Origin: Peptostreptococcaceae bacterium
GTDB lineage: Bacteria > Bacillota > Clostridia > Peptostreptococcales > Filifactoraceae
Direction: 5' to 3'
Assembly (NCBI GenBank): GCA_030528605.1
Contig: JAUMYO010000009.1
Coordinates: 1-46,315 of the forward strand
Length of the DNA stretch: 46,315 nt
The notes under the pieces were generated by a model. That model was given only the letters and a program-made list of their open reading frames with translations. It was not told where the DNA came from and made no database searches. Made by a program: the position numbers and the translations under genes. Of the stretch, positions 17,387-28,075 are shown piece by piece. Every line of letters begins with the position of its first letter. Position 1 is the stretch's first letter.

Positions 17387-18466
17387 TTAGATATTTTCTG
17401 CCAAGATATTTTTTGCAAATTCCTCAGAGCGTGTTTCAATATCCTCCACCGCAAAGATCGATCCCTTATCATTTGCAATAGCCGAGATCGAAAAATAAGG
17501 TGGCAACTGAAAAGTTTTGTTCATATTCAAGGCTCGTATAAGCTGTGTTGCAATACTTTCAGTCCCCGAACTTCCGGATACGATCGCAGCATAAAGCTTT
17601 TTATCATAAAACTTATACTTCCGAAATAATGCGGTAAGACGATTGATCATCGCAGTCATATTCGCTGAAAGTGCATCATTATAATTCGGACAAACCAAAA
17701 AAATGATATCGGAATTTGAAATTGCCGGATAAACCTCAGATGTCATAATATCTCTGTAATAACAACGATCATTTAGTCCGAAAGATTTACATGCGTTGTA
17801 TCCGCAGGCGTTGCAATCAAGTAAAGCAAAGTTCTTCAAAGAGATCTCTTTAATGGAAAAATGGTCATCCAATTTATCCCGCACCATGTTCCATAAAGCC
17901 AGTGTATTGGAAGAACTATCGCTGGAATGCAGAACAACGATTTGTTTTTGTCTCTCCGATCGAAGATCTTGTTCTATATTTTTTTGCAAAAACAAACGCT
18001 CCATCCGCTCAAGCATTGCAAAACATTCCAATTCCAAGATCTCTGTAAGTGCCTTTCCTGTTCTTCGACTATGTCCTAAATAATTTTGCAATCCCACAGG
18101 AGCTTCAACGATCGGTCTGCCGACAAAGCGGAGTCCCATTTTATTTAATCGATACACTAAAGTCGATGCAGTTTGCTTTGTGTACTCCTCTTCTTCTGCC
18201 GAGATCAGTATGCCCCCTACAGATCCCCGAAAAACTCCAGGATCCGTACGATAAAGATCGGATAAACTTTCGACAAGTAATTCTATTTTTTTATTAACGC
18301 CAAAAGCCCTCAGATGTATAGCAAAAACAAGTTTCGACCCGTAAAACCGATCACCGGATGTCTGGATCTCTTCCATTTCAATGCGAGCCGGATCGTATTT
18401 GGATGAGATTTTATCGATCAGCTGCGTTAATTTTTCGGACAGCTCTCCAACTTCTATTATAAACAT
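17387..18466 (-). CDS. Flavodoxin-fold iron-sulfur flavoprotein-like protein with a second, degenerate flavodoxin-like half
   Basis: A 359-aa protein. The C-terminal part (about 172-359) is an NADPH-dependent FMN reductase / iron-sulfur flavoprotein fold: a phosphate-loop-like HSSDSSSNT (180-188), a cysteine cluster Cys218, Cys221, Cys226, Cys235 in the place where ISF proteins bind [4Fe-4S], then IIFLVCPNYNDALSANM. The N-terminal 40-135 region reads like the second half of another flavodoxin fold (GSVGGILISAEEEE, GLRFVGRPIVEAP) without the FMN loop, so it may be a degenerate tandem copy. The cysteine spacing CX2CX4CX8C is longer than the classic ISF motif. It follows the dehydrogenase-like gene by 6 nt, with AGGAG before ATG 18466. 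I infer electron transfer for the neighbouring enzymes. Confidence 0.7.
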   Translation of the reverse strand: MFIIEVGELSEKLTQLIDKISSKYDPARIEMEEIQTSGDRFYGSKLVFAIHLRAFGVNKKIELLVESLSDLYRTDPGVFRGSVGGILISAEEEEYTKQTASTLVYRLNKMGLRFVGRPIVEAPVGLQNYLGHSRRTGKALTEILELECFAMLERMERLFLQKNIEQDLRSERQKQIVVLHSSDSSSNTLALWNMVRDKLDDHFSIKEISLKNFALLDCNACGYNACKSFGLNDRCYYRDIMTSEVYPAISNSDIIFLVCPNYNDALSANMTAMINRLTALFRKYKFYDKKLYAAIVSGSSGTESIATQLIRALNMNKTFQLPPYFSISAIANDKGSIFAVEDIETRSEEFAKNILAENI

Positions 18467-18472
18467 GATCTC

Positions 18473-19750
18473 CTACTTAATATTCTTTAATAGGTCGTGC
18501 GTATTTCTTATTTTTTCAAACAGGTCATCATTCATAGGGATCCTCTCGACCTCGATCCCTGAATCGGACACCTTATTCTTGATCCCCAGATAAGCATTAT
18601 CTATAAATATGCTGCTGTAATTGTATTTACCGGCAATACGGGATATGATCGAGATCGCTCCTGAAGAGAGTGCCGGTGCGATATAAGGCTTAAATCCAAG
18701 CTCTCGGACCATCAAGTTTGCATTGACCGTTTTATTGGTAAGCTCAACCGATTTTTTTGCATTATAATCATGTATATCATCACAGATCACCAATCCGCTT
18801 CCGTGCATTCCGAACACTCTACCGTTTCGTTTGAAGTCTTTTACATCGGGATCCATATTGGCATAATATAAAGCGCGAGAGTACATTACCCCTAATCCGA
18901 AACCTTGAATTTGTTCAGGAAGCATCCCTTTATGATCCCAATTCCCGTCAGCATCTGTATTGCTGATCTCATATGCAGCTTTGCACAGCATTTCGACCGG
19001 ATCGGATACGATGGCGAAAATACCCTTAAATTTAGCATCCCTGGTTTTTCTGACATATTTGGTCAAGATCTCACGATTCGCATCATATTGTACTGCTCGA
19101 ACATCTCCGGTTTCCGAACCGACCGGAGGAACTTTTGATGAAGCACAAAATATAAACATATCGCAATCCATTATATTTTCTTTTTCAACCGTTTTAACAA
19201 CAGGTTTGCCTGTGTGCATCGGAGAATCTTCATCGATCGAATAAACTTGGTTCAGCTCCATCTCATATCGTTTCATCACATTTTGTTTGACAGAGTACAC
19301 TCCGATCTCGGAAATATGATCTCCCCCCAGAAGCTTTAAGCCAACCAAAAGATTTGAACCGATATCGCCCAATCCGACGATATTCACCCTCCATTTCCCT
19401 TTTTGAGGGATGTTTAGTATATTTAGAAAAGATCTATGCGCTATGTTGATATACCGAACACGACGCTGATCGATCTTTTCAATGATCCATGTAGGGATCG
19501 ACGAAGTATCCGCACGTTGTCCTTGGTTGCTCCTAATGATCTCCAAATCATCCGGATTCTCAAAGATCATCGCAGGATCGGTAATAGCAAAGCTTACTCT
19601 TTTATTGACATCTGTTTTTTTTATAAAAAACAGAATGTTGCCCTGATCCGTTTCCATCAGATTACGACATTGATGTTCTGATATTTCTTGACATTCTTTG
19701 AGTTTTTCAGTAGAAAAGCCGGGTCTCCCATCCACTTGATAATAATACAT
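18473..19750 (-). CDS. Lactate/malate dehydrogenase-like NAD-binding protein with an extra N-terminal domain
   Basis: A 425-aa protein. Residues about 120-420 follow the LDH/MDH pattern: Rossmann NIVGLGDIGSN (GxGxxG at 126-131), SDPVEML (249-255, where LDH has NPVD), GMHGS (314-318, with His316 at the catalytic histidine position) and a C-terminal SSGAISIISRIAG block. The usual GEHGDS is altered, and the substrate-loop arginines cannot be placed, so the substrate is unlikely to be plain lactate or malate. The first ~115 residues are an extra domain I do not recognise. ATG 19750 follows AGGAGGAG. It lies 16 nt after the giant gene and 6 nt before the flavoprotein gene. I infer a redox step on a product of the giant enzyme. 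Confidence 0.65.
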   Translation of the reverse strand: MYYYQVDGRPGFSTEKLKECQEISEHQCRNLMETDQGNILFFIKKTDVNKRVSFAITDPAMIFENPDDLEIIRSNQGQRADTSSIPTWIIEKIDQRRVRYINIAHRSFLNILNIPQKGKWRVNIVGLGDIGSNLLVGLKLLGGDHISEIGVYSVKQNVMKRYEMELNQVYSIDEDSPMHTGKPVVKTVEKENIMDCDMFIFCASSKVPPVGSETGDVRAVQYDANREILTKYVRKTRDAKFKGIFAIVSDPVEMLCKAAYEISNTDADGNWDHKGMLPEQIQGFGLGVMYSRALYYANMDPDVKDFKRNGRVFGMHGSGLVICDDIHDYNAKKSVELTNKTVNANLMVRELGFKPYIAPALSSGAISIISRIAGKYNYSSIFIDNAYLGIKNKVSDSGIEVERIPMNDDLFEKIRNTHDLLKNIK

Positions 19751-19766: not shown

Positions 19767-22700
19767 TTAATTTTTTGTGTTAACAAACATATTTTTTAAT
19801 CTTCTTAAATTCTCCAGATCATTTTTTAAATATACAGAGGGCTTGGTATTCAGATCCAACTCTACGTTTTTCCCATAATCCGGTCTTCTTGTTTTTTCAA
19901 AAACTTCACGGAGTTGAAACAAACTGAAAGTTTTCTCATTGATCTTTTGGTATTCTCTCTCTATTGCTTCAAAAAACAGGATCGCATTTTCGATACATAC
20001 TTCCGATAAGTTATAGATATCTTCCGTGCGAGCACCTTTTATAAAATGAGGGTAAGCATAGGGCAAGATGTAATTTAAGGACGGAAGCAAAAAGTGTTCT
20101 TTTTGGCCTTCTCTTTTAACATAGTCTCCTCCAATAAAGGGATACATGGCATTTTCATTAAACCAGTTCCTCAGATTTTTGAGATAATAAATATACTCCA
20201 CCTCGCGACCGTGCTGTTGCAAGATCTCTTGCCCTCGACCCGATAAGATCGCAACTACCAAATGATCGATCTCGACCTTTTTTTCTTTGAATAAAGGCCA
20301 CATCTTCTGAATACGATAACCTTTATGGAGGATATCATCGATCAGGATCACCGGACGATCAAAAGATTTGATGGTCTCGATCTGAATGGAAAGATCCATA
20401 TAATTCGGATATTGCTCAATGTCAAATGATCCAAGATCTGAGCGAAAAACTTTCTCGGTATGCAGTGATTTGGTTACTGTGTTCGGTACGATCGTTTCGT
20501 TTAATATCGTGCCATATGAAACACATATTTTATCCCCCAGTTTTCGAGGCTTTACAGGAATAATTGAAACGGAATTGATCTCACAGACTTTCTTCACCAA
20601 TTTGGAATATGTCATCTTTCGATCAAATGCCAACACCAATTCTCCCGGGTATAGCTTTGTTAGAGCTCTTTGTAAGCGTTCCCTTGTGTGATAGATCACT
20701 TTCCTTATATTCTCATTGTTACGGAAAGGGTCTTTAACGATACTTCGAAGATCCGGATTCAAAACGATCGGATTCGACATATTGACACCATAGACCTTTG
20801 GTTTTCCATCACTTTGTTCTATTTCAACGAAACCTTGATTTTTAAGGACCTCGCTGATCTGATCATCATTTAATGGATCGTGATAGACACAAAAAGAATA
20901 ATCTTTCTCGATCGCCATCGCCAGTATCTCAGTCAACATGATCTGACCCAGATGAGAGATAGGATAATGCTTTTTGACCCATAATGAATTTATAACAAAT
21001 ATTCTTCCCATCGCTTTGTTTCTAAGATACTCACTGATATCCGGATTTTTAAATTCATGGTAATAATTTGGACTTTTTAACCAAAACCCGGTTGCGAAAG
21101 CGATGATATTCTCGTCCTCTTCATTTTTTAGAGCAACAAGCTTCAGCTCCTTTTTATGATCATCATTAAAAAGGTCGTTTAGATCATAATATTTCTGACC
21201 AGGGATCCTATCTATAAAGATCTTTGCTTCTTCCGCGGAGATCGGATCATAGATCTCGGTTTTTATCCCTGATTTTGGAGCAAAAAACTTGTCTCTGGGT
21301 GCTTTTTTATACAAACTGAATCGATAGATATAGGATTGTGCTTGATGATCGATCAACTCACTGATGTCACGGTTTTCATCGATAGATTCTCGGATGCGTG
21401 TTGAACTGATCGATTCATATTGTGGCGGAAGATTCAATATTTCGATCCGACCTTTGATATTATTGATCTTATCGACCGGGAGATCATCCTCTGATCCATT
21501 CTTTTCATCATCCATCTTTCGGTGAAAAATAATATGATCCAGATCCAGGATCTCTCCGTTTTTTCCTTCAAGATAGCTGCTTGCATTTTTGACCACATCC
21601 GAGCCTACGACGATCGAAAGTTCTTTATCCGGGAATAATGCCTTTAGCTTTATAATATCTTTATCATTTGCTATATTGATCGGATATTTGTTAGGGAAAA
21701 CATATATATTCATCTCATCTGCAATAGAGCATTTTATGATATTTTTTCTTATCTCATTCGGCTGAGTTTTTTTTGACCACGAAAATTCATCGATCGCCAG
21801 AAAAACATCATAGCCTTGTTTTCGTATTTCTTTGACGATCGCTTTATGCCCTAATGAAAACGGATCGAAACTTCCCGGGAAGAAAGCGATCTTATGATTG
21901 TTTTTCCCTACCAATTTACCCTCAAAAAATTCATAGTCTGAAATAAACCGATAGATCTTATTGAGCGAAGCGGAATTATTGATAAAGATGTTTTCCTCGG
22001 AGATCTTTTCTCCGATGATATTGAGCAATCTTTTATCGATGATCTCGAATATCAGTCTCTTGTCATCAAGGGACAACCTTTTTGAGCTAAAAAGTCTTGC
22101 AATGATCTTTAGACTGTCATTACTGATCGACAGATCAAAGCTGTACAATCCGATCATCAATATACCGAGCATTTTTTGCATGCGATCGATATAGTGGGTC
22201 TCCACTTGATCTTTTGTGTATCCGCAAGAAAGATACTCCTCAACACAATACCCTACAGCCATAAGGACCAACCAGGTGAGTTGTGGTGGAGAAGTTTTGA
22301 CTTTCACATAAAAATCATCCAATATTTCATCCAGCTCGTTTGGTTCAAGATGAACGATCACTTGACCGGCATACTTGGGAATATACTTTGTAAACTGAAT
22401 ATCCTGCATCTCAAGTGCTCGGATCAATTCGATAGCAACTTCATTTTTCTCTTGCTCTTGCAAGTTTCCAATGATCTTTACGATCGATTTCCCTGAGTGA
22501 TTGCGTACACTTTCTGTGGAGCTGACTTTCAACAGATTGCAAAAATGAAGAGCGGTTTGTAGATCGTTTTGAGTTTTACCTTGCAATAAGAAATCGACCA
22601 TAATGTCAATGTTAGCTTTTTTTTCGATCCATCCGGTAGCGCTCTTCAGATTTTTCAGGTAGATCTCGACCACATCCTGCTTATTAATAAAATCTTTATT

Positions 22701-24680
22701 CAGCAGAGAGATCACCTCATCGACTTGTAGTTCAAAATGCTTGCCGAGTTCCCGGATCATTTTTATTCGGAGATGGTTCAAAACCTTATTTTCATCTTGT
22801 TTTGTTTGTTCGATCATCTTCCTGGCGAAATAAATATCTTGCTCTTCTGCAATGGAGTATTTAGCCATGATATAGATCAGTTTAGAGATCGCAAAGCGGA
22901 TCTCCACATTGGAATGATCGTAGAAATGATCTAAAAAGGCATGGATCCCATCCTTGATATTCAATCGATCATATCGAATGTGTTTTAAGATCTGAGTGAG
23001 AGCCAGAACGACCCCCGGGTCGGGAGCACCGATCGCTTTTTGCAAATGTCGTAAGATCACTTCATGATAGATCTCCGGTTTTGTTGTCGTTAAAAAAAGC
23101 GATTGGACCATATTTTTAGAGTTGATCCGAAGCCACTCGATATTCTTATCCGTTTGTTTATGATCCTTGTATAACAGATAGTTCAAAAAGCGGTCAAAAA
23201 CATCGACACTTGTTTGTTCGTCGTGTATCCTCGAAACGCTATCAGGGATCTCTTTACGATACTCCTCATCAAAGTTTGCGATCATGATCCCTATTACTTC
23301 CGCCACTTGATTACGCACATCTTCTTCTCTGAACAACAGTAGATCCTGCAGAACGTTAAATAATAAGATCTTCTGCTCCTTTCCGAGGTATTTGTCGTAT
23401 TCTTGGAAAAGAACGATATAGTTCCTTAACTCTCTTCCATTTTTTTCACTACTTAATTTCAAGAGCAGATCATTAAAACTTTCGAATGAGCTGAAGTTCT
23501 TCAATATATTGATATTATAGTTTATCGACTGAAATTTTATATTATCGACGATTTGATCTCCATACATAAAAGGAAAATCTTTTTGCTCTCTATCGTTAGA
23601 CATAGATATAGCTTTTAACGGATCCGTCTCAATGCCCATGTCTATCATATAATTTTCAAAATCTTTCAGTTTGGCATAGACTCTTTTGTATCTTCGTTCT
23701 TTCGCTTCGTCCACATTGTCTAATTTATCTAAAATCACTTGAAACGAATCCGATAGATCATAAATATGCATGCTTGACCCTAATGCTTTGACTCTAAAAT
23801 CCGCATAGATCAAAACAAGGGATTCGATCTGTAAATTTTCTAATTCAAGATCCCAAGTGGAATGATTGGCAGCAACTTTACCGGAAAAAGGCATCGATCT
23901 CTTTTTGAACCAAAGATCTGTATAGTAATAATGAAGATAGGGTATCCGTTTTTCTTCACTTTTTTTTGCACCATATTTCCCCAGATCATGACCCATCGAA
24001 GCTGAAACAACGATCCCAAGGTCGATCGGGACACCTCTGGACTTTAGCTGTCGAGCAATAAAAAGTGCTATATAGCAGACTCCGGATATATGATCCAAGG
24101 TAGTATAACCTTTGACTTCTTGGCTTAGTTTGAGCATCTCAAAGATATAGTCTTCCTTAAAGTGCTTTTTAAAGGTGAAGTATTCATTGTGAGGAAGGAG
24201 TTCCTTTTCTTCCGATCCATCCAAAAAACACATCGGAAATCGATTATAAAATCGGTCTCCTCCTAAGGTCGTTTCATGGTAGCTGATCTCCTGAAAGAAG
24301 ATCAGGAATAATTTTGCAAAAAAATCATTCCACTTGATCGGATCAAATTGAACGGACTCCGGAAAACAACGATGTCTTATATGATCATAAGTATATTCCA
24401 AAAATGATTTCTTATCGGGACAGTGATCTTTCTCAAAGATCTTTTTAGATCGCTCATCTTCCAAATGATCCTTTGAAAGATCACAGGAGCTGCATATGTC
24501 GATAAAGTAGTTTTCCAAGATAGACAATAGAGAATAAGCACTCCAATCTCTTTTTTCCATCAGATCTTGTATCTTCCGGATCATCGTTTCGTCCGGAAGC
24601 GGGATCTGCATAGAGTAAGAGATTCCAAGCCCATTCAGTTGCTCAAATATTCTTTTGAAAGATGTCTCGTTTTTCATCAT
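19767..24680 (-). CDS. Giant multidomain protein: HD domain, helical repeats, NadD-like nucleotidyltransferase, GNAT-like and phosphoribosyltransferase-like domains
   Basis: A 1637-aa cytoplasmic protein with no signal or membrane segment. From the N-terminus it has an unknown helical region (1-185); an HD-type phosphohydrolase-like domain (about 190-300; His197, His231-Asp232 in GHDLGK, His273, Asp294); a long region of HEAT-like helical repeats (about 390-900); a nicotinate-nucleotide-adenylyltransferase-like domain (930-1126) with GSFDPFSLGH (936-945) and ISSTRIR (1091-1097); a GNAT-like segment (about 1146-1306); and a phosphoribosyltransferase-like domain with VILIDDILHKGYR (1444-1456). 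The first of the two histidines of the usual HxGH is Ser here. I start at ATG 24680 because GGAGGGG lies just upstream; ATG 24692 is inside that site. It heads a unit with the two redox genes downstream. Domain calls are by motif; the combined function is unknown. Confidence 0.7.
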   Translation of the reverse strand: MMKNETSFKRIFEQLNGLGISYSMQIPLPDETMIRKIQDLMEKRDWSAYSLLSILENYFIDICSSCDLSKDHLEDERSKKIFEKDHCPDKKSFLEYTYDHIRHRCFPESVQFDPIKWNDFFAKLFLIFFQEISYHETTLGGDRFYNRFPMCFLDGSEEKELLPHNEYFTFKKHFKEDYIFEMLKLSQEVKGYTTLDHISGVCYIALFIARQLKSRGVPIDLGIVVSASMGHDLGKYGAKKSEEKRIPYLHYYYTDLWFKKRSMPFSGKVAANHSTWDLELENLQIESLVLIYADFRVKALGSSMHIYDLSDSFQVILDKLDNVDEAKERRYKRVYAKLKDFENYMIDMGIETDPLKAISMSNDREQKDFPFMYGDQIVDNIKFQSINYNINILKNFSSFESFNDLLLKLSSEKNGRELRNYIVLFQEYDKYLGKEQKILLFNVLQDLLLFREEDVRNQVAEVIGIMIANFDEEYRKEIPDSVSRIHDEQTSVDVFDRFLNYLLYKDHKQTDKNIEWLRINSKNMVQSLFLTTTKPEIYHEVILRHLQKAIGAPDPGVVLALTQILKHIRYDRLNIKDGIHAFLDHFYDHSNVEIRFAISKLIYIMAKYSIAEEQDIYFARKMIEQTKQDENKVLNHLRIKMIRELGKHFELQVDEVISLLNKDFINKQDVVEIYLKNLKSATGWIEKKANIDIMVDFLLQGKTQNDLQTALHFCNLLKVSSTESVRNHSGKSIVKIIGNLQEQEKNEVAIELIRALEMQDIQFTKYIPKYAGQVIVHLEPNELDEILDDFYVKVKTSPPQLTWLVLMAVGYCVEEYLSCGYTKDQVETHYIDRMQKMLGILMIGLYSFDLSISNDSLKIIARLFSSKRLSLDDKRLIFEIIDKRLLNIIGEKISEENIFINNSASLNKIYRFISDYEFFEGKLVGKNNHKIAFFPGSFDPFSLGHKAIVKEIRKQGYDVFLAIDEFSWSKKTQPNEIRKNIIKCSIADEMNIYVFPNKYPINIANDKDIIKLKALFPDKELSIVVGSDVVKNASSYLEGKNGEILDLDHIIFHRKMDDEKNGSEDDLPVDKINNIKGRIEILNLPPQYESISSTRIRESIDENRDISELIDHQAQSYIYRFSLYKKAPRDKFFAPKSGIKTEIYDPISAEEAKIFIDRIPGQKYYDLNDLFNDDHKKELKLVALKNEEDENIIAFATGFWLKSPNYYHEFKNPDISEYLRNKAMGRIFVINSLWVKKHYPISHLGQIMLTEILAMAIEKDYSFCVYHDPLNDDQISEVLKNQGFVEIEQSDGKPKVYGVNMSNPIVLNPDLRSIVKDPFRNNENIRKVIYHTRERLQRALTKLYPGELVLAFDRKMTYSKLVKKVCEINSVSIIPVKPRKLGDKICVSYGTILNETIVPNTVTKSLHTEKVFRSDLGSFDIEQYPNYMDLSIQIETIKSFDRPVILIDDILHKGYRIQKMWPLFKEKKVEIDHLVVAILSGRGQEILQQHGREVEYIYYLKNLRNWFNENAMYPFIGGDYVKREGQKEHFLLPSLNYILPYAYPHFIKGARTEDIYNLSEVCIENAILFFEAIEREYQKINEKTFSLFQLREVFEKTRRPDYGKNVELDLNTKPSVYLKNDLENLRRLKNMFVNTKN

Positions 24681-24718
24681 GCTCCCCTCCATTGGATCTT
24701 TTTATTCTGACTCTAATT

Positions 24719-24752: not shown

Positions 24753-24795
24753 AAGGCTTGCTTCGCTTTATATGATGAAGAAGCAAGCAAGCCTT
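24753..24795 (-). terminator. Rho-independent terminator after iorB
   Basis: The arms AAGGCTTGCTT (24753-24763) and AAGCAAGCCTT (24785-24795) make an 11-bp stem. The minus strand then reads TCTTTTTGC. It starts 6 nt after the iorB stop and ends the ptb-iorA-iorB transcript. Confidence 0.8.
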
Positions 24796-24801
24796 AGCAA
24801 A

Positions 24802-25374
24802 TTATTTTATCAAACTTTTTCCTAATTCGATCGCCTTTAAGTTGATCTCTACCAAGTTAGGTTTTATATTCTCTGATAAGATCTTATTCCAATCAATATC
24901 TTCTAACTGCATAGACTTTATTATCGTTCCAAAAAGGATCATATTAGTCACTCGAGAATTGCCCAGTTCTTTAGCAAGCTTTGATGCTTCGACCACTATC
25001 GTCTTTGCCTTACTTTGCAACTCTTCGATCACATCGGACGGATAATCGAATTTGCCGGTCAAAATAGGCATGGATTCGATCTCCAGATCATTTACAACGA
25101 TCGTACCATCCGGTTTTAGATAGTCAAGTGCTCTTAACGCTTCCATTTTTTCAAAGGCTATGATGATATCTGCGCTTCCTTTTTCAATAACGGTAGACTC
25201 CACTTTTTCTCCATAACGTACCTGAGAAGAGACGGATCCCCCACGTTGGCTCATTCCATGGATCTCACTCATTTTCACATCATATCCGCGCTCCATCAGA
25301 CCGGTAGTTAATAATTTTGCTGCGAGGATCGTTCCTTGTCCTCCGACTCCAACTAAAAGAATATTCTTTGTCAT
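24802..25374 (-). CDS. iorB: Indolepyruvate ferredoxin oxidoreductase, beta subunit
   Basis: IorB is the small subunit of indolepyruvate:ferredoxin oxidoreductase, which with IorA oxidatively decarboxylates aryl-2-oxo acids from aromatic amino acids to aryl-acetyl-CoA, reducing ferredoxin. The 190-aa protein begins MTKNILLVGVGGQGTILAAKLL and has EIHGMSQRGGSVSSQVRYG, the marks of the gamma-type subunit of the 2-oxo acid oxidoreductase superfamily. The open frame extends to 25422, but ATG 25374 overlaps the iorA stop by one base (TAATG), with AAAGGTGG upstream, so that is the start. Length is normal. It is translationally coupled to iorA. Confidence 0.95.
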   Translation of the reverse strand: MTKNILLVGVGGQGTILAAKLLTTGLMERGYDVKMSEIHGMSQRGGSVSSQVRYGEKVESTVIEKGSADIIIAFEKMEALRALDYLKPDGTIVVNDLEIESMPILTGKFDYPSDVIEELQSKAKTIVVEASKLAKELGNSRVTNMILFGTIIKSMQLEDIDWNKILSENIKPNLVEINLKAIELGKSLIK

Positions 25375-27155
25375 TATTCGACCACCTTTCCGATCGCTCC
25401 TGTAGGGCAAACTTGTAAACAAACTTCACAACCAACACATTGTTCCGGATTGATCGAAGACTTCTTAGCCTCTTTATCAAATGATAGAGCCGGACATCCT
25501 GTTCGAATACATTTTTTACACCCGATACATACTGCCTGATCTACCCTACATTTTGTTGTAAATGCAGCCGAAAATTCCTTTTTATCTACATCTGTGAATT
25601 TTTTCAAAACACATGGCCATCTGGTGATTATTACAGAAGGCTCATCAAGCTCGTAAGCCCAATCCAACGCGGCTTTCACTTCATCCAACCGATTCGGATT
25701 TACGGTTTTCACATTTTTTATACCACAAGCTTTTACAAGCGGTTCGATCTCAACGATATCGGTCGGCATCCCTTGCAAAGTATATCCCGATCCCGGGTTT
25801 TCCTGATGCCCGGTCATACCCGTGATCCGGTTGTCCAAAATAATATTGATCGAGTTGGATCTGTTATACACCACATTTAGCAGACCGTTGATCGCGGTAT
25901 GGAAAAATGTAGAGTCTCCAACAACGGATACTACTCTTTTTGGAGCTTCCGTTTTATTCGTAACTTGTTGGAATCCGTGTCCCGAACCAAAAGCTCCACC
26001 CATACAAACATTAAAATCCATGGCATTATATGGTGGCGCGAAACCTAAAGTATAGCATCCGATGTCGCCCGCGATCACTGTATTTTTTCGCTTTCCGATC
26101 TCGTAGAAGAAACCTCTGTGAGGACATCCTGCACAAAGAGTCGGAGGTCTCGGTACGACTTTTTCCGCATCCGGGATCAAGTTTTCAAGAGACTTTCCAT
26201 ATACCGCTCTACGGATCACATCCGGTGTTTTTTCTCCGCAGAATGGGAAGAAGTTGTTTCCTAAGCAATCGAAGCCGAGTTCTCTGACTTTTTCCTCGAT
26301 ATAAGAATCATTTTCCTCAATTACATAGATCGTTTCTTTTCCTGTACAAAAATCTACGATCTTCTTGTCAGGTAAAGGGTTAGTAAATCCAAGCTTAAGA
26401 TAAGACACGGAATCAGCAAAAACTTCTTTTGCATATCCATAACATGCACCTGATGCGATCACTCCGATCTTGCTGTTGTTATCTACAATAAAATTCAGGT
26501 CGGTATTATTTGAGAAGTCTCTGAGTTTATTGAGTCTTTCTTCCACTACCAATCTCATTTTTTGGGAATTCGCAGGAACGGTGATATTTTTAGGAATATT
26601 TTTTTCATAAGGCTTGATGCCGACTTCTATTCGATCTTGAAGCTCTACGATACCTTTGGAATGACAGATCCTTGTTGTCATTCTGAATAGTACGGGAGTA
26701 TCAAATTCTTCGCTGATCTCAAATGCTTTTTTGAACATATCTTTTGACTCTTGACTGTCCGAAGGTTCCATCAAAGCGATCTTTGCCATTTTGGCAATAT
26801 TTCTGTTATCCTGTTCATTCTGAGATGAATGTTGTCCCGGCTCATCGGCAGAGATCAAAACAAATCCTCCGTTCACTCCCATATAAGCATATGTAAGTAG
26901 TGGGTCTGCAGCAACATTCACACCTACATGTTTCATCGCAGCAAAACTTCTTGCACCTGCAATAGAGGCTCCGATAGCTGATTCCGCAGCGACCTTTTCG
27001 TTTACAGCCCATTCCGCTAAAATGGAATCTTTGTATAGTGCTGTGTTTTCCAAAATCTCGGTACTCGGTGTTCCGGGATATGCGGACGCATAAACCACAC
27101 CGGCTTCATAGGCGCCGCGTGCCACCGCTTCATTTCCAGTCATTAGTTTTTTCAT
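25374..27155 (-). CDS. iorA: Indolepyruvate ferredoxin oxidoreductase, alpha subunit
   Basis: The large, thiamine-diphosphate-dependent subunit of IOR (593 aa). The N-terminal domain has SAYPGTPSTEILE. The TPP domain has GDIGCYTLG (about 364-372) and GDSTFFHTAINGLLNVVYN (about 414-432). The C-terminus carries a ferredoxin domain with two clusters of cysteines: CIGCKKC plus the Cys in RTGCP, and CVGCEVCLQVCP. The enzyme works in the cytoplasm of anaerobes and yields acyl-CoA, CO2 and reduced ferredoxin. I chose ATG 27155, six nt after AAGGAG; a GTG one codon earlier is too close. It lies 17 nt after a phosphate acyltransferase gene, which suggests the acyl-CoA is turned into an acyl phosphate. 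Confidence 0.96.
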   Translation of the reverse strand: MKKLMTGNEAVARGAYEAGVVYASAYPGTPSTEILENTALYKDSILAEWAVNEKVAAESAIGASIAGARSFAAMKHVGVNVAADPLLTYAYMGVNGGFVLISADEPGQHSSQNEQDNRNIAKMAKIALMEPSDSQESKDMFKKAFEISEEFDTPVLFRMTTRICHSKGIVELQDRIEVGIKPYEKNIPKNITVPANSQKMRLVVEERLNKLRDFSNNTDLNFIVDNNSKIGVIASGACYGYAKEVFADSVSYLKLGFTNPLPDKKIVDFCTGKETIYVIEENDSYIEEKVRELGFDCLGNNFFPFCGEKTPDVIRRAVYGKSLENLIPDAEKVVPRPPTLCAGCPHRGFFYEIGKRKNTVIAGDIGCYTLGFAPPYNAMDFNVCMGGAFGSGHGFQQVTNKTEAPKRVVSVVGDSTFFHTAINGLLNVVYNRSNSINIILDNRITGMTGHQENPGSGYTLQGMPTDIVEIEPLVKACGIKNVKTVNPNRLDEVKAALDWAYELDEPSVIITRWPCVLKKFTDVDKKEFSAAFTTKCRVDQAVCIGCKKCIRTGCPALSFDKEAKKSSINPEQCVGCEVCLQVCPTGAIGKVVE

Positions 27156-27172
27156 CACATTCTCCTTTTTTC

Positions 27173-28075
27173 TTAAACAGCTGAAGCTGAAATTGCCAAT
27201 GATAAATATTTTTCTTCGGTCGAAGCTCCGCGAGAAGTCAATACGATAGGAACTTTGGCTCCGACTATAAAACCTGCCATCTTAGCACCGGCAGAATAGA
27301 TCAAACTCTTGCCCAAAATATTGCCTGCAGTTATATTAGGTACGACAAGTATATCCGCATCCCCCGCAACAGGACTTCGGTAACCTTTTATTTCCGAGCT
27401 TTCTTTGTTCATAGCCAGATCATAAGAGATCGGACCTTCAATGATACAGTTCCTGATCGTTCCGTCTTGGTTCATTTTTTTGAGTGCATCTGCATCGACC
27501 GCTTCCGGCATCTTAGGATTGACGACTTCTACCGCTGCAAGGACCGCAACTTTTGGATTTTCGTATCCCATTTTGTTGAAAATACTTACCGCGTTTTCAA
27601 TGATGCTCTTTTTGCCTTCCAGATCGGGATATGTCATCATCCCGCCATCCGTAACGGCGATCAACTTCGGATAATTCGGAACTTCCTGCATAGCAACATG
27701 GCTCATAGGTTTTCCCAAAGAAAGTCCGGTCTCTTTGTTCACAACCTCTCGTAAAAGATCTGCTGTTTGAAGTTTTCCTTTCATCAGAAAATCTCCTGTA
27801 CCGTTTCGTATGAGCTCTACAGACTTTTTAGCTGCACTGACATCATCTTCCGTGTGATAGATCTCATATTTATCCTGCTCGACACGAAGCTCTCCAAGCA
27901 TTTTGACAATACTTGGCTTGTCGCCTACCAAGATCGGTTCAGCTATGTTGTTTTTATCTGCATAAACCACTGCTTCAAGAGCATGCTCATCATGGGCTGC
28001 CGCTAAAACGACTTTTTTCTTTTTTCCTGCACTTTGAACATGGAAAACCAGCTCATCGAAGGTTTTAAATGCCAT
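27173..28075 (-). CDS. Phosphate acyltransferase (phosphate butyryltransferase, Ptb-like)
   Basis: A 300-aa member of the phosphotransacetylase/phosphotransbutyrylase family, which converts acyl-CoA plus phosphate to acyl phosphate. The family order is visible: AAHDEHALEAVVYADKNNIAEPILVGD near the N-terminus, FLMKGKLQTADLLREVVNK (about 98-116), GKPMSHVAM, LAVTDGGM-like AVTDGGMMTYPDLEGK, and the C-terminal ILVVPNITAGNILGKSLIY and VLTSRGAS. No butyrate/acyl kinase gene is adjacent, so the second step must be encoded elsewhere. It is the first gene of the transcript with iorA and iorB, under a consensus promoter. The natural substrate may be branched or aryl acyl-CoA rather than butyryl-CoA; this is inferred from context only. 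Confidence 0.9.
   Translation of the reverse strand: MAFKTFDELVFHVQSAGKKKKVVLAAAHDEHALEAVVYADKNNIAEPILVGDKPSIVKMLGELRVEQDKYEIYHTEDDVSAAKKSVELIRNGTGDFLMKGKLQTADLLREVVNKETGLSLGKPMSHVAMQEVPNYPKLIAVTDGGMMTYPDLEGKKSIIENAVSIFNKMGYENPKVAVLAAVEVVNPKMPEAVDADALKKMNQDGTIRNCIIEGPISYDLAMNKESSEIKGYRSPVAGDADILVVPNITAGNILGKSLIYSAGAKMAGFIVGAKVPIVLTSRGASTEEKYLSLAISASAV

Follow-up and report, generated by a model that had tools for sequence, protein, structure and literature searches.

A giant multidomain protein encoded with two redox-type partners in Clostridia points to an undescribed nucleotide pathway

In a 46,315-nucleotide stretch of contig JAUMYO010000009.1 of a Peptostreptococcaceae bacterium (the window, by which we mean the whole stretch of DNA that was analysed), a gene for a 1637-aa multidomain protein lies beside two genes for redox-type proteins. 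Together, these genes point to an undescribed pathway in which a nucleotide-type molecule is made, checked and used, and it is reasonable to regard the giant protein and its two partners as one metabolic module, and thus as a system. All the domains of the giant belong to known families, and it is the architecture, the three-gene unit and the presumed product that are undescribed in the open-access literature that was searched. Our literature search, which covered open-access papers only, found no description of the giant architecture or of the three-gene unit. The protein is not the singular fusion that a preliminary description of this DNA took it for. It belongs to an old family that many anaerobic bacteria retain, with homologues of ~1600 aa across many Clostridia, and the oddity lies in the undescribed pathway, not in the fusion itself.

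The genes and adjacent signals are the following:

19767..24680, minus strand: giant protein gene, 1637 aa (sequence, Pfam, homologues, two AF2 models)
18473..19750, minus strand: partner 1, LDH/MDH-superfamily protein, 425 aa, with an N-terminal extension (Ldh_1_N, LDH-structure alignment, co-occurrence)
17387..18466, minus strand: partner 2, FMN-reductase/flavodoxin-like protein, 359 aa (FMN_red, alignment)
24684..24690, minus strand (read 24690-24684): Shine-Dalgarno sequence GGAGGGG, shortly ahead of the ATG at 24680 (read from the sequence)
24753..24795, minus strand: 11-bp perfect inverted repeat followed by TCTTTTT, 3′ of the stop codon of the upstream iorB (read from the sequence)

The frame at 19767-24680 on the minus strand is single and intact, with no interruption. 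The mechanical ORF begins at 24692, 12 bases ahead of the ATG at 24680, and an alternative ATG at 24677 is also possible. The giant is confirmed as a real gene with its own ribosome-binding site. It is followed on the same strand by the LDH-like gene (after 16 bp), the FMN-reductase-like gene (after a further 6 bp) and then groES and groEL. The inverted repeat at 24753..24795 is likely a terminator dividing the giant operon from iorAB; its loop is too long for the automated scan that was run. An Rfam search of 14-29 kb gave no regulatory RNA matches. Upstream of the giant (24802-28075) are iorB, iorA and a phosphate butyryltransferase-like gene, which neighbour it only in close relatives.

The giant was found in 33 of the 59 genomes of the window's order, a count from which three further matches at the level of ordinary NadD were excluded. 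Each of these 33 genomes, and no other of the 59, carries the LDH-like gene; 31 carry the FMN-like gene (the exceptions are G032, where the contig ends, and G040, where the gene is missing), while the 26 genomes that lack the giant have neither partner; the surveyed genomes are mutually related and this co-occurrence is stated without a p-value. At class level 32 of 391 genomes matched and at phylum level 8 of 398, the survey being confined to the window's phylum. A contig scan starting from the single giant protein returned one relative, and the genome-set search recovered more.

The preliminary description had proposed looking for the same two partners beside homologues, and they are there. 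In about 59 of 71 loci, neighbour clustering showed the order giant, LDH-like, FMN-like, with flanks that vary by lineage. The partner genes are always on the strand of the giant, the first gap is usually <25 bp and the partners most often overlap by 4 bp. Acetoanaerobium noterae, the nearest named genome, has the same giant operon. The A. noterae replicon at locus L098 (NZ_CP154629.1, 2.63 Mb) is filed as plasmid pTPELB2 with four annotated features and is presumably the chromosome. At L111 and L114, the partner pair is ~5.4-5.6 kb downstream of the giant with other genes between, and in genomes G749, G825 and G824 the giant is located elsewhere, with the LDH-like gene still in the genome. 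The giant tree mostly tracks taxonomic families and flanks are shared inside families, as expected for a long-held metabolic gene set. Four giants (L036, L113, L116 and L137) are without the redox pair and adjoin a gene for a 307-312 aa APH/fructosamine-kinase-like protein. The kinase-like genes share 41-52% mutual identity and their position suggests an alternative partner; the four giants themselves fall on two distinct branches of the tree.

The order of domains in the giant is N-terminal region, HD, alpha-solenoid, NMNAT-type, GNAT-like, PRTase-like and C-terminal helical part, with these boundaries:

24219..24680, minus strand: helical N-terminal region, residues 1-154, without known relatives and poorly conserved (AF2 model, conservation)
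23601..24218, minus strand: HD domain, residues 155-360, H197...H231-D232...H250...H273...D294 (ligands, Pfam HD, hhalign)
21921..23600, minus strand: linker and HEAT/armadillo-type alpha-solenoid, residues 361-920 (AF2 model, structural matches, conservation)
21297..21920, minus strand: NadD/NMNAT-type nucleotidyltransferase, residues 921-1128, GSFDPFSLGH and ISSTRIR (Pfam, NCBIfam, structure, alignment)
20766..21296, minus strand: GNAT-like domain, residues 1129-1305 (Foldseek, Pfam, alignment)
20121..20765, minus strand: type I PRTase-like domain, residues 1306-1520, VILIDDILHKGYR (Pfam, alignment)

The motifs quoted in the preliminary description (H197, H231-D232, GSFDPFSLGH at 936-945, ISSTRIR at 1092-1098 and VILIDDILHKGYR at 1444-1456) all lie at the residues claimed. 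They are not chance, because same-length homologues retain them, and the NMNAT and PRTase motifs are present in nearly all of the ~65 homologue sequences. Mean majority identity is 0.65-0.68 in the HD, NMNAT and PRTase domains, 0.45 in the GNAT-like part and 0.40 in the N-terminal region. Two AF2 models were built from family alignments, both confident, one of residues 1-929 (pLDDT 89.6, pTM 0.87) and one of residues 690-1637 (pLDDT 89.2, pTM 0.88). Their structure match lists are dominated by NadD and generic HEAT proteins and gave no separate confirmation of the PRTase, GNAT and HD folds.

The identity of the NadD/NMNAT-type domain is certain. Residues 921-1128 match the structure of NadD 4rpi (VIA Z 19.6, rmsd 2.5, 184 residues), and Pfam CTP_transf_like matches the giant at 6e-9. 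The NCBIfam matches, to NadD and CoaD, are weak, and the giant scores 49.8 bits against the NadD equivalog TIGR00482, below its cut-off of 112.45. Aligned with NadDs from the same genomes, the domain retains GxFDPFxxxH, the conserved Arg and Asp, and ISSTxIR, but nicotinate-side elements are missing: the SYTxxT segment is deleted and GxD...W has become GSD...Y. With the deletion of SYTxxT and the replacement of the W, the acceptor is probably not NaMN, and the retained fold and motifs would then serve adenylyl transfer to a different acceptor.

A separate NadD gene above the cut-off was present in 29 of the 30 genomes checked, including that of the window, where it overlaps yqeK. Replacement of the housekeeping NadD by the giant was therefore rejected. 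Quinolinate synthase (nadA) occurs in 16 of the 33 genomes with the module and in 11 of the 26 without it, so the module shows no tie to de novo NAD synthesis, and that link was rejected too. Given the separate NadD, the missing nicotinate-site motif and the lack of co-variation with nadA, it is unlikely that the giant is an ordinary NAD enzyme.

For the HD domain, identity is near certain. H197, H231, D232, H250 and D294 occur in every homologue that has the domain, and a single one lacks H273. Of 33 members, 28 have a Pfam HD match, the best at 2e-6, and hhalign aligned the domain with YqeK at E 1.3e-4, covering its first half. The extended H...HD...H...H...D ligand set is diagnostic of a dinuclear YqeK-type site (PMC8177086), and the giant has all of it (H197, H231, D232, H250, H273, D294), so that its six-ligand dinuclear motif is complete. 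At the position of the HD-phosphatase Arg, three residues before the first His, the window protein has T194 (family consensus NTLDH). In an NCBIfam search up to E 1, the YqeK family was not among the matches to the giant. The general statement that HD enzymes remove phosphates, from which the preliminary description had argued, is better taken to mean a dinuclear diphosphatase site of the YqeK type, even though the Arg that HD phosphatases conserve is missing.

The long helical repeat region claimed earlier is an alpha-solenoid, as judged from the AF2 model and matches to HEAT proteins. It spans ~391-920, with conserved blocks at ~391-530 and 671-920 and very conserved residues that include H712, N715, K718, E751 and E785. 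Its structural matches (Z ~14 to HEAT proteins; CAND1, importins, SF3b) are generic.

The acetyltransferase and phosphoribosyltransferase assignments stand with qualifications. Foldseek matches of the GNAT-like part to KKT23 acetyltransferase, NatD and GCN5 are weak (E 3e-4 to 2e-3, TMt ~0.5-0.6), and Acetyltransf_1 matches 3 of 30 members. The fold is thus weakly supported, but the Q/RxxGxG/A acetyl-CoA loop is not conserved in the family alignment and the family can spare this domain more readily than any other, L055, L059 and L060 having a shortened form of it; it is probably degenerate. In the PRTase-like domain, the window protein barely passes PRTase-CE (PF24390; 27.4 bits against a gathering score of 27), which matches 2 of 34 homologues. 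Pribosyltran (PF00156) matches 21 of the 34, whereas the window protein, at 14.7 to 17.2 bits, falls under its gathering score of 26.3. Of the two segments whose significance the preliminary description had made its test, the NMNAT one is significant and the evidence for the PRTase is modest. Moreover, the PRPP loop DDxxxTGxT is altered, with DD kept and TGxT replaced by KGYR in most members.

The "two redox partners" of the preliminary description are, by Pfam, an LDH-like and an FMN-reductase-like protein. Partner 1 scores 34.5 bits against Ldh_1_N (cut-off 27). Alignment to LDH structures revealed that R218, R292 and H316, the equivalents of LDH R109, R171 and H195, are kept, and that D250 stands at N140 and M289 at D168 in all 27 sequences. 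Because the change is uniform, it suggests a remodelled LDH-like active site, not decay. Partner 2 matches FMN_red at 2.4e-16 (60.1 bits, cut-off 24). Cys 218, 221, 226 and 235 and PNYND at 260-264 are invariant in all 25 sequences, and the four-Cys motif may possibly carry an Fe-S cluster. A search of the partner 2 profile against solved-structure sequences gave nothing at E 0.001.

Genome G033 encodes two short paralogous giants. L060, which has both partners, is without the N-terminal region and HD domain and keeps the NMNAT and PRTase motifs, whereas L059, which stands alone without partners, keeps the HD domain and has lost the NMNAT motifs. In L055 (G043), sister to L059, the NMNAT motifs are damaged and the HD domain is intact. 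Seen in a single lineage whose branches are long, this complementary loss suggests a need for both the HD and the NMNAT activity, which two separate chains could meet. A further cytidylyltransferase-like gene of the Citrate_ly_lig/CoaD type lies upstream of the short L060 giant (L060:11914-12390) and is likely part of a recG-rsmD-coaD cluster.

Our best explanation, held tentatively, is that the giant makes and edits an X-pp-A dinucleotide and that the redox partners use the product. In minimal mycoplasmas, YqeK fused to NadD (JCVISYN3A_0380) proofreads NAD synthesis by hydrolysing wrong NaAD analogues (PMC9426524), and by analogy with that adenylyltransferase and its HD diphosphatase we infer that making and editing X-pp-A is the most likely role of the giant. 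In this scheme the dinucleotide contains ADP, and the solenoid would serve as the scaffold of the enzyme. The C-terminal PRTase-like domain would make or capture a 5′-mononucleotide, onto which the NMNAT domain would transfer the AMP of ATP; the resulting X-pp-A would probably not be NaAD. Wrong or surplus dinucleotide might then be hydrolysed by the YqeK-like HD domain, in the manner of the known NadD-YqeK fusion, and the LDH-like protein and flavoprotein would use, reduce or oxidise the product, which may be a NAD-like redox cofactor or a redox-linked signal. The domains, the NMNAT and HD catalytic motifs, the operon, the co-occurrence and the separate NadD are what we observed; each reaction, its substrates and the order of steps are our proposal. 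Against it stand the KGYR loop without TGxT, so that PRPP chemistry may be absent, T194 in place of the HD-phosphatase Arg, a weakly conserved GNAT part that has no role in the scheme, and the giants that lie beside an APH-type kinase with no redox pair. The earlier suggestion that the protein builds or recycles a nucleotide-type cofactor or signal is reasonable, as the NMNAT and HD motifs are intact and the partners linked, with the PRTase and GNAT parts qualified. In its most specific form, the proposal is that the module makes, proofreads and uses an as yet unreported redox cofactor, an X-pp-A dinucleotide whose base is not nicotinamide, by means of a single-chain synthase-editor and two dedicated partners, which we regard as doubtful.

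An alternative that we consider unlikely, if worth keeping in view, is NAD(P) quality control, the repair or disposal of damaged or wrong pyridine dinucleotides, with the NMNAT and HD domains synthesising and hydrolysing NaAD analogues and the redox proteins handling abnormal reduced forms. The NadD-YqeK proofreading precedent (PMC9426524) and the pairing of a NAD-binding LDH fold with a flavoprotein fit this account, as does the housekeeping NadD-YqeK already present. Yet the giant is missing the nicotinate-site elements of NadD, a repair duty would be expected in the relatives too, of which 26 of 59 are without the module, and presence of the module does not track nadA (16 of 33 with, 11 of 26 without).

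The altered PRPP loop, the absent CoA-loop signature, the GNAT part shortened in L055 and L060 and the very conserved solenoid residues would also suit a ligand-sensing scaffold, whose domains bind PRPP, ATP and dinucleotides while the solenoid relays to the redox partners and the PRTase and GNAT parts are non-catalytic. We give this account the same low standing as quality control, since almost all members have full HD and NMNAT catalytic motifs.

A role in stress response or phage defence, with the PRTase as effector, is improbable. The PRTase part matches PRTase-CE, a family reportedly derived from work on prokaryotic conflict systems, and one solo giant (L130) adjoins a TerD/TelA cluster. 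However, PADLOC had no match for the three proteins, PHROGs had none either, the giant is absent from the phage records searched, and the tree largely tracks families, with flanks shared inside them. A phage or mobile origin was rejected on the same null results; the viral contigs searched gave short NadD-type matches only. The L130 cluster (L130:382-6801) comprises three TerD genes, TelA, YceG and a PF15617 C-C bond lyase; this neighbourhood was seen once and is not kept in sister genomes, and a Ter/tellurite association was rejected.

That the giant is a large NadD or CoaD isozyme of ordinary NAD or CoA synthesis, as the closest fold (NadD) and the weak NCBIfam matches to NadD and CoaD might suggest, is highly improbable given a score of 49.8 bits where the equivalog cut-off is 112.45, a normal NadD elsewhere in the genome and the lost acceptor-site motif.

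A ~1640-residue protein with two near-obligate partners across many Clostridia must repay its cost, yet Pfam annotates it in fragments. Should the X-pp-A dinucleotide reading hold, the module would bring to light a nucleotide cofactor or signal not seen before, and would be a clear example of one chain that both synthesises and proofreads. The idea can be tested directly on the three-gene unit, the split pair of G033 and the residues listed here.

Among known systems, the NadD-YqeK fusion of mycoplasmas resembles the giant in that a single chain carries both an adenylyltransferase of the NMNAT type and an HD hydrolase whose metal ligands are YqeK-like. In the giant, however, the HD domain is N-terminal with ~560 residues of solenoid between, GNAT-like and PRTase-like domains and two near-obligate redox partners are added, the nicotinate-site motif is absent, and a separate NadD-YqeK pair is encoded in the same genome. 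The YqeK Ap4A hydrolase (COG1713) has the same order of six metal ligands, but the spacing from HD to the next H is ~32 residues in YqeK and 18 in the giant, and the conserved Arg of YqeK is replaced by T194. Bacterial NadD (TIGR00482) shares the fold (Z 19.6), GxFDPxxxxH, ISSTxIR and the C-terminal YI..LY, whereas the giant is far under the equivalog cut-off, with SYTxxT gone and GxD...W now GSD...Y. With PRTase-CE (PF24390) and type I phosphoribosyltransferases (PF00156), the giant shares an acidic DD and then a G at the end of a beta-strand, in the position of the PRPP motif, but has KGYR where these enzymes have TGxT. Lastly, partner 1 resembles the L-lactate/malate dehydrogenase superfamily in a Rossmann domain above the Pfam cut-off and in the kept equivalents of R109, R171 and H195, and differs from it by its N-terminal extension and by having, throughout the family, D at N140 and M at D168.
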